DNA from: Streptomyces sp. BA2
Lineage (GTDB): Bacteria; Actinomycetota; Actinomycetes; Streptomycetales; Streptomycetaceae
DNA: 64,000 bases
Direction of reading: 5' to 3'
Assembly: GCF_009769735.1 (NCBI RefSeq)
Contig: NZ_WSRO01000002.1
Location: 4,848,001 to 4,912,000 of the forward strand
The notes under the pieces were generated by a model. The model saw only the letters and a list, made by a program, of their open reading frames with translations, was not told the origin of the DNA and did not search any database. Numbering within the stretch: position 1 is the stretch's first letter; each line of letters begins with the position of its first letter. Positions 8,034 to 61,189 of this stretch are shown piece after piece. Made by a program: the position numbers and the translations under genes.

Positions 8034-8106
8034 GGGTGGGGTGAGAGACCTGAGACAGGCACCCGCCAGCAGTACGCAGCAGTCTCCAGAGACGAGGAAT
8101 CAAGCC

Positions 8107-58968: not shown

Positions 58969-59091
58969 CTTCACGGACGCTGTGCCTGGCGCGCAGGCAT
59001 GAGTACCGTTCCGCTGCGACGGGCGGTAGAGAGCCGTGTGACGGGCGGGCCGACGGGCGCACCACCGTGCGGGATCGGGAATCGGGGCGGA

Positions 59092-59880
59092 ATGGACGCG
59101 AACGACAACAACGCGAACGAGCCGCCGTCCCCATCCGCTGAGCCCTTGACGGCCGCATCCCCGCCCCGCACGGGCATCGCCGCACTCTCCCCGCGCTACC
59201 AGGTGGCGGCCGCGCTCGCGCTCGCGCTCATCGCCGTCACGGCCTGCGTCCACGTAGGGATGCTCTTCCTCCACGTCGCCCCCGCGAACACCATGACCAA
59301 GCAGCACGGGCAGGCAGTCGACGACTGGATCTACCCCGAGTTCGAGCAGAACTGGAAGCTCTTCGCGCCCAACCCGATGCAGCAGAACATCGCCGTGCAG
59401 GCCCGCGCCCAGATGCGCACGGACAGCGGAACGACCCGGACCACCGGCTGGTACGACCTCTCCGCGCGCGACGGCGCCGCGATCGACGGAAATCTGCTGC
59501 CCAGCCACACGCAGCAGAACGAACTGCGCAGGGCCTGGGACTTCTACGTCGGCGCGCACGACGCGCAGAATCGTCCCCGCGGCCTGCGCGGGGAGCTCTC
59601 GGAGCGCTACATCCGCCGCATCGTGATGATGCGCGTCGAGCGCGAGGAGCCCCTCGGTAAGGGCGCCACGATCGAGCGCGTCCAGGTCCGCTCCCGGACC
59701 ACGAACGTGCCGGCCCCCGAGTGGAGCGATGAGAAGGTCACGACGAAACCGGCGCTGCGCCAGCTGCCGTGGTGGTCCGTGGAGCCCGACGACATGCCTC
59801 TGGGTAAGGCTCAGGGGTCTTCCGACAAGGCTCAGGGTTCCTCGCACAAGGCTCAGGGATCTGAGGGGGACACCCGATGA
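59092..59880 (+). CDS. DUF5819 family membrane protein
   Basis: The 262-residue protein has one membrane helix (YQVAAALALALIAVTACVHV) and an external domain with the family segment YPEFEQNWKLFAPNPMQQNI, plus QQNELRRAWDFY and LRGELSERYIRRIVMMRVE. A 21-bp repeat codes KAQGSSD/KAQGSSH near the C-terminus. I chose ATG 59092. The stop overlaps the HTTM gene (ATGA), and DUF5819 and HTTM genes are usually adjacent in Streptomyces. Function unknown. Confidence 0.85.
   Translation: MDANDNNANEPPSPSAEPLTAASPPRTGIAALSPRYQVAAALALALIAVTACVHVGMLFLHVAPANTMTKQHGQAVDDWIYPEFEQNWKLFAPNPMQQNIAVQARAQMRTDSGTTRTTGWYDLSARDGAAIDGNLLPSHTQQNELRRAWDFYVGAHDAQNRPRGLRGELSERYIRRIVMMRVEREEPLGKGATIERVQVRSRTTNVPAPEWSDEKVTTKPALRQLPWWSVEPDDMPLGKAQGSSDKAQGSSHKAQGSEGDTR
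59806..59865 (+). repeat. 21-bp tandem repeat at the DUF5819 C-terminus
   Basis: AAGGCTCAGGG-type units of 21 bp occur almost three times and code KAQGSS(D/H) in frame, in the last 25 codons. Confidence 0.9.
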
Positions 59881-61133
59881 ACCGCTTCGGCTCCCTCCTC
59901 GGGCGCGGCATCGAACGGGTCACCGCATCCGCTCTCGGTCCCTATCAGACCGCCGTGATCCGCATCGGATTCGCCGCCACCTGGCTGCTCTTCCTGCTGC
60001 GCGAACTCCCCCACCGCCTTGAGCTGTACGGCCCCGACAGCCCGTGGAGCTGGGACATGGCCCAGCAGCTCATCGCGGAGAACGACGCCTTCACGGCCCT
60101 GATGTGGTCCGACGGACGCATCTGGTTCGAGGTCGTCTACGCGCTCGCCGTCCTGAGCAGCGCCCTGCTGATGCTCGGCTGGCGTACGCGCACGATGTCC
60201 GTGCTCTTCATGATCGGCGTGCTCTCGCTGCAGAACCGCTCCATCTTCATGGGCGACGGCGGCGACAACGTCATCCACCTCATGGCCACCTACCTGGTGT
60301 TCACGCGCTGCGGCCAGGTCTGGTCGCTCGACGCCCGCCGAGCGGCACGCGCGCGTGCCGCGTCCGTCGAGCAGGGGAAGACGCCGGTCGGCCCGGCCAA
60401 GACGGCACAGCCCGTCGACAAGGCCGGGCCCGTGCTGTGGTGGGTCCTTGGGCTCGGTCTCTGCGTGGTGACGTTCATGGGGGAGCTCAGCGGGGGCTGG
60501 CTGCTGGTCTTCTGGGGGCTGTGGCTCGCGCACGGCCTGTGGTGGGCCGTCGGGCGGCGCGCGCCCGACGGTGAGGCGCGCAAGCTGCTCGACGTCATCG
60601 TCAAGATCGCGCACAACGCCGCACTGCTGGTGATCATGGTCGAGGCGTGTCTGATCTACGCGACGGCCGGCTGGTACAAGATCCAGGGCAGCCGCTGGCA
60701 GGACGGCACGGCCATCTACTTCCCGCTGCGTCTCGACTACTTCTCCCCCTGGCCCGCGCTCTCCGACCTGCTCGCCTCGCACGGCCTCATGGTCATGCTG
60801 GTGACGTACGGGACGGTCGCCGTGCAGGTCGCCTTCCCCTTCACCCTCTTCAACAGGCGGGTCAAGAACGTCCTCCTGGCCGCCATGATCTTCGAGCACG
60901 CGGTCATCGCGGTCGTCCTCGGACTGCCGTTCTTCTCGCTCGCGATGATCGCGGCCGACGCGGTGTTCCTGCCGACGTCGTTCCTGCGCCGCGTCGGCGG
61001 ATGGGTGGCACGCGCGCGTGGAGCGCTGTTCTCGCGGTTCTCACGCGGCGATACGGTGCCGGGACAGCGTGGGGCGGACGAGGAACCGGCCAGGGAATCC
61101 ACCGAGCACGCGCGCGTAGGCTTCCCTTCATGA
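59877..61133 (+). CDS. HTTM domain membrane protein (vitamin K carboxylase-like)
   Basis: The 418-residue protein has eight or so membrane helices and the HTTM signatures IRIGFAATWLLFLLREL, GDGGDNVIHLMATYLVFTRC and YATAGWYKIQGSRWQDGTAI. HTTM is the membrane domain of vitamin K-dependent gamma-carboxylase; bacterial members have no known reaction. It is coupled to DUF5819 by ATGA and to the next gene through two tiny frames. Confidence 0.88.
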   Translation: MNRFGSLLGRGIERVTASALGPYQTAVIRIGFAATWLLFLLRELPHRLELYGPDSPWSWDMAQQLIAENDAFTALMWSDGRIWFEVVYALAVLSSALLMLGWRTRTMSVLFMIGVLSLQNRSIFMGDGGDNVIHLMATYLVFTRCGQVWSLDARRAARARAASVEQGKTPVGPAKTAQPVDKAGPVLWWVLGLGLCVVTFMGELSGGWLLVFWGLWLAHGLWWAVGRRAPDGEARKLLDVIVKIAHNAALLVIMVEACLIYATAGWYKIQGSRWQDGTAIYFPLRLDYFSPWPALSDLLASHGLMVMLVTYGTVAVQVAFPFTLFNRRVKNVLLAAMIFEHAVIAVVLGLPFFSLAMIAADAVFLPTSFLRRVGGWVARARGALFSRFSRGDTVPGQRGADEEPARESTEHARVGFPS

Positions 61134-61189
61134 ACGGGACGTACAAGGGATGAGCGGGACGTACGCCGGATGAACGGGAAGCACCAGCG
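61130..61189 (+). repeat. 20-bp tandem triplication carrying two coupled 7-codon frames
   Basis: ATGAACGGGACGTACAAGGG, ATGAGCGGGACGTACGCCGG and ATGAACGGGAAGCACCAGCG follow each other with a 20-bp period. The first two encode MNGTYKG and MSGTYAG, each ending in an ATGA that starts the next frame; the third ATG begins the methyltransferase. Confidence 0.85.

Follow-up and report, generated by a model that had tools for sequence, protein, structure and literature searches.

The window, by which we mean the whole 64,000-nucleotide stretch of Streptomyces sp. BA2 DNA that was analysed, contains a run of three genes on the forward strand that ends with a TrmH/SpoU-family RNA 2'-O-methyltransferase (Table 1). 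The DUF5819 gene and the HTTM-domain gene share an ATGA overlap, so that the whole three-gene array is joined by 4-nt overlaps. An earlier note on this DNA had reported that the HTTM stop overlaps an ATG and that two seven-codon frames then lead, through three ATGA junctions, into the methyltransferase gene; its coordinates and frames proved exact, and direct reading confirmed both frames and all three junctions. The methyltransferase start that it had proposed also stood. The next in-frame candidate, GTG 61206, would leave only 13 codons before conserved residue 26, too short an N-terminus compared with relatives, and 275 of 276 loci in which TrmH is opened directly from the upstream start described below are longer than this.

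Table 1. Genes, predicted signals and small reading frames at the HTTM-TrmH junction of the window.
Feature	Position	Strand	Basis or remark
DUF5819 gene	58999..59880	+	PF19136; its TGA overlaps the HTTM ATG (ATGA 59877-59880)
HTTM-domain gene	59877..61133	+	PF05090; SdpB-like, below the NCBIfam cut-off; TGA 61131-61133 lies within ATGA 61130-61133
TAGGCT, predicted leaderless -10 box (TANNNT)	61117..61122	+	within the HTTM 3' end; ATG 61130 is seven nt on
Predicted transcription start, the A of the first AUG	61130	+	predicted from spacing compared with reported S. lividans data (PMC8079986)
20-bp tandem repeat, 2.5 copies, each opened by ATGA	61130..61179	+	TRF
Mini-ORF 1, MNGTYKG and stop	61130..61153	+	reading frame
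Mini-ORF 2, MSGTYAG and stop	61150..61173	+	start overlaps the mini-ORF 1 stop (ATGA)
TrmH/SpoU-family RNA 2'-O-methyltransferase, 259 aa	61170..61949	+	PF00588; start overlaps the mini-ORF 2 stop (ATGA)

The earlier note had further held that the three start regions are 20-bp tandem repeats and that the chain arose by duplication, and both claims were borne out. TRF returned a repeat with a period of 20, 2.5 copies, 83% matches and a score of 72, and pairwise identity was 16/20 between copies 1 and 2, 13/20 between copies 2 and 3, and 16/20 between copies 1 and 3. The relay frames exist because 20 is 2 mod 3, so that the frame of each copy ends on the TGA of the next; by the same arithmetic, any ATGA-bearing unit of 2 mod 3 length that lacks an internal in-frame stop yields a relay. 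The sister locus in S. longisporoflavus (L001), whose TrmH is 91% identical, carries one unit where the window carries two and keeps the coupling, and the next relatives (L004 and L087) open TrmH directly. The simplest history would be a 20-bp duplication in the common ancestor, followed either by a second one in the lineage of the window or by loss of a unit in S. longisporoflavus.

The arrangement is rare in its surroundings. Scanning the window for ATGA-only chains of at least two mini-ORFs (each of at most 30 codons) that lead into a long ORF of at least 100 codons recovered one on the forward strand and none on the reverse strand, and the same scan of both strands of 20 Markov-resampled windows gave one in total. 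This repeat is also the only tandem 20-mer with at least 16/20 identity in the window, and each of five resampled windows contained none. The 151-bp junction matches its own genome once, with no second copy. We considered and rejected a conserved function for the mini-ORF peptides, whose sequences and lengths vary between clades, as well as a readthrough fusion of HTTM and TrmH; these two genes are in the same frame in the window, but from locus to locus TrmH does not keep one frame with respect to the leaderless start.

Alignment of relatives brought out a feature that the earlier note had missed: what they conserve at this junction is a DNA motif around TAGGCT, followed seven bases later by an ATG. 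We assembled 362 loci and removed 6 without an orthologue, 5 with too short an upstream region and 55 duplicates, leaving 296 unique Streptomycetaceae TrmH loci; these are the closest relatives per search, among the matches listed, and not a random draw. A TANNNT box lies 6-8 nt before an ATG or GTG in 288 of the 296, while eight lack a box by the criterion used (L021, L054, L079, L141, L162, L215, L251 and L357). The box reads TAGGCT in 244 of the 288, TAGGGT in 42, and TAGGTT and TAGTGT in one each, the commonest combinations being TAGGCT seven nt before ATG (227 loci) and TAGGGT seven nt before ATG (41 loci). Promoters mapped in S. lividans reportedly carry a TAnnnT -10 box 4-9 nt before the start site (PMC8079986), and the TAGGCT of the window, seven nt before ATG 61130, falls within the 4-9 nt before the start codon that defines a leaderless TANNNT signature in Streptomyces. 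Leaderless transcripts are common in the genus, with reported shares of 17% in S. lividans (PMC8079986) and about 21% in S. coelicolor (PMC4895711). No TTGAC-like -35 consensus was visible in the upstream profile of 276 loci with 7-nt spacing, a profile in which the box positions are conserved partly by construction, the box having been used to pick the start; the -35 element of S. lividans has itself been published as weakly conserved (PMC8079986).

The same motif also stands before ORFs elsewhere in the BA2 genome. TAGGCT-N7-ATGA occurs at 12 sites in 10 Mb, compared with one for the reversed-pattern control; one of the 12 is the relay site, and each of the other 11 directly starts an ORF of 130 codons or more. 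TAGGGT-N7-ATG occurs at 23 sites (reversed control, 8): 18 directly start an ORF of 60 codons or more, two are relay-like and three are short without an overlap. Given these site counts and the conserved box, we take ATG 61130 as very probably a leaderless start, and probably the 5' end of the TrmH mRNA. Several other sites surfaced in these scans. Within the window, TAGGNT-N7-RTG yields two sites, too few for a statistic; the only one outside the junction, at 8036, opens a 2-codon GTG-GGG-TGA frame whose GTGA opens a 341-codon ORF, and may be chance. Two TAGGGT-N7-ATG sites in the BA2 genome (L385 and L397) open 26- and 27-codon ORFs with GTGA overlaps to ORFs of 420 and 111 codons, respectively, and are either candidate coupled leaderless small ORFs or chance. 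At another (L381, C2:2853268-2853283), TAGGGT-N7-ATG opens MHAQTIRNWWWPAHPAAH followed by a stop, a peptide close to the leaderless TrpL1 attenuator peptide reported from S. lividans (PMC8079986).

We then related the start after the box to the TrmH frame across these loci. This start opens TrmH directly and in frame in 276 of 288 loci, with 7 to 103 codons between it and conserved residue 26. In the remaining 12 it is out of frame, and in all 12 an unbroken chain of stop/start overlaps leads from it to the TrmH start. The comparison of this junction among relatives that the earlier note had called for, made here across the Streptomycetaceae, thus places a relay in 12 of 288 box-bearing loci, with one, two or four steps: nine loci have one mini-ORF (L001, L005, L008, L014, L023, L062, L088, L121 and L261), two have two (the window, L081, and L009), and one has four (L096). 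The final junction is ATGA in every case, and the 17 relay junctions altogether comprise 15 ATGA, one GTGA and one TAGTG; the TrmH start of these loci lies 21-143 nt from the predicted mRNA 5' end. A smaller set of 203 unique loci gave a like picture, with 197 carrying the box, 186 direct and 11 out of frame. When the 288 loci were placed on a midpoint-rooted codon tree, parsimony gave five origins of the relay, in five clades (supports 0.985-1.0) nested among direct loci.

Our best reading, which we consider probable from the sequence, is a leaderless start at 61130 followed by two termination-restart steps to TrmH. TAGGCT would direct transcription from A61130, and a ribosome would start on the terminal AUG there, which one or two 20-bp tandem duplications downstream of the promoter may have moved out of the TrmH frame. 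This ribosome would translate seven codons, stop at UGA and restart on the overlapping AUG, repeat this once, and then translate TrmH. The first ATGA could also serve as the entry point for ribosomes that have completed HTTM on a longer operon transcript. We infer the start site, the translation of the mini-ORFs and the re-initiation in this scheme from the sequence. In published tests of six gene pairs from E. coli and Haloferax, re-initiation was reported to be strongly dependent on the distance being short, and an upstream ORF of 15 nt was reported to be enough in two E. coli pairs (PMC10666635).

If each unit hands the ribosome on in this way, RTGA-bearing duplications would be tolerated for that reason at the 5' ends of leaderless genes. 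We entertain tentatively a wider form of this idea, in which such duplications buffer the frame, steps are free to grow or shrink, and each step multiplies output by the efficiency of re-initiation, which would make the relay an evolvable dial. Step number does differ between close relatives: it is two in the window and one in L001, four in L096 and one in L014 and L062, and two in L009 and one in L008. These differences would also fit an addition to the leaderless relay reading, that step numbers of 0, 1, 2 and 4 have been selected to set TrmH output, which we regard as unlikely. Relays are rare (12 of 288 loci) and have different peptides, unit lengths and origins; neutral drift in which the frame must be kept would yield the same pattern. 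The relay is most likely a duplication scar that preserves expression, and a neutral scar is at least as likely as the tuning of methyltransferase output that the earlier note had put forward.

An alternative dispenses with the relay altogether, with 30S subunits starting TrmH directly at 61170 and the mini-ORFs being untranslated debris. Repeats produce such chains by arithmetic, and Saito and colleagues, who argue that re-initiation is not the main mechanism in E. coli, favour de novo initiation there in the work cited (2020, PMC7538156). The retention of the leaderless-start frame in 276 of 288 loci, with all 12 exceptions chained, argues against this. Under random indels, random tandem duplications and duplications carrying the start codon, the chance of a chained outcome is 0.05, 0.22 and 0.50, giving p values of 4e-7, 5e-4 and 0.03 for five origins; restricting the internal start to ATG changes these chances to 0.01, 0.41 and 0.50 and the p values to 4e-10, 0.01 and 0.03. 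Because a duplication that copies the start chains an out-of-frame result about half the time, five origins give only p ~0.03, and the most generous chance model is rejected only modestly. Stops that overlap an ATG or GTG are frequent anyway in this GC-rich DNA, which counts against the leaderless relay reading: when direct loci are read in their other frames, the first stop before the core is of this kind in 106 of 156 cases (95 GTGA, 11 ATGA), and in 109 of 176 over a slightly longer stretch. ATGA itself shows a sharper contrast, being the final relay junction in 12 of 12 loci compared with 11 of those 156 first stops. At one S. hygroscopicus locus (L033, 2803-2953), a 14-bp tandem repeat of 10.8 copies in the HTTM 3' end creates nine successive GTGA-linked 5-codon mini-ORFs. 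This chain leads nowhere: the promoter beyond it is intact, and TrmH is opened directly. Such chains therefore come about passively as well, and finding one does not prove that it is used.

Predicted RNA features were weighed on the same question. Pairing with the anti-Shine-Dalgarno sequence upstream of the two internal starts is predicted at -6.3 and -5.9 kcal/mol, the latter in front of 61170, where it would favour direct entry. The predicted fold of the first 130 nt in the window points the other way, leaving the six 5' bases open, with an unpaired value of 0.81, against 0.35 in the mostly paired TrmH start region. We gave these fold values little weight since they shift with length (the first 6 nt of L005 score 0.45 at 110 nt and 0.98 at 130 nt), and a 130-nt fold gives no valid start-region value for L009, whose TrmH start lies at nt 143. 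Neither the predicted fold nor the moderate predicted pairing decides between the modes of entry. We judge direct initiation at 61170 improbable.

Operon coupling only, a further account that we hold improbable, has the relay supplied by ribosomes that finish HTTM and restart at ATG 61130, with TAGGCT as mere coding sequence. In its favour, an ATGA likewise joins DUF5819 to HTTM, and HTTM stops on the TGA of the first RTGA in 210 loci out of the 281 where HTTM was matched (seven of the 288 box-bearing loci lack a match). It fits poorly with the other 71, where HTTM ends elsewhere, box and start are still present, and 70 open TrmH directly; in 34 of these 71, HTTM ends on the TAG within the box. 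One of the relay loci, L088, has its relay despite an HTTM stop of this kind, at -13. Among the 210 loci whose HTTM stops on the RTGA, the HTTM codon within the box is GTA in 209 and ATA in one; by comparison, GTA makes up 35 of 2,887 valine codons over the rest of the final 480 nt of HTTM. The conserved -10 box suggests that the relay would have a transcript of its own to feed it, rather than depending on HTTM ribosomes alone, as the leaderless relay reading proposes.

The relay resembles several known arrangements. RTGA-coupled leaderless small ORFs have been described in mycobacteria, where they are over-represented (Shell et al. 2015, PMC4633059): a short ORF begins at a leaderless RTG, and its TGA shares bases with the RTG that starts the following gene. 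In one example there, the linkage is conserved and the peptide is not. The junction in the window has the same form, with 5-50 codons and a TGA overlapping the downstream RTG as the defining features and 7 + 7 codons and ATGA twice as the finding. The cases in that report have one short ORF per gene and come with transcription start sites and ribosome profiling, whereas the Streptomyces relays form chains of one, two or four and are known from sequence alone. Unlike the mycobacterial case, they also precede a gene whose own start, in most of the relatives examined, bears the leaderless signature. MIRU elements of mycobacteria likewise place a small-ORF repeat at a start codon and keep the -4 nt coupling (PMC12548453), and the 4-nt overlap between repeat ORF and gene is present here. 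MIRUs are described as repeatedly found and apparently mobile (PMC12548453), whereas the present junction is single-copy and looks like a local tandem duplication; we rejected membership on this ground, the 151-bp junction having one match in the genome where a MIRU would have many.

The 4-nt overlap as a coupling device is shared with the ATGA termination-reinitiation pairs of Huber et al. (2019, PMC6728339; 2023, PMC10666635); the pairs described there consist of full genes, whereas here the upstream partners have seven codons and lie where the mRNA 5' end is predicted. The leaderless attenuator leader peptides reported from S. lividans (PMC8079986) are also short ORFs read from the mRNA 5' end. 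Unlike those, MNGTYKG and MSGTYAG contain no run of one regulatory amino acid and show no such enrichment. Because each mini-ORF stop overlaps the start that follows, an attenuator or terminator hairpin would have no space between peptide and gene.

RTGA-coupled leaderless small ORFs and MIRUs of mycobacteria are the precedents for this arrangement. Among the matches listed from the open-licence literature, judged by title and the opening of the abstract, none was recognisable as a Streptomyces chain of several tandem relay steps that begins at a leaderless start and differs in length between relatives. The mechanism of bacterial re-initiation is disputed between Huber and co-workers and Saito and co-workers, and multi-step relays make sharply different predictions for re-initiation and for direct 30S entry. 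The relays further suggest that ordinary gene calling would miss 5' mini-ORFs of this sort. In the Streptomycetaceae, the natural series of 0, 1, 2 and 4 steps before one orthologous gene offers a probe of repeated re-initiation after a leaderless AUG.
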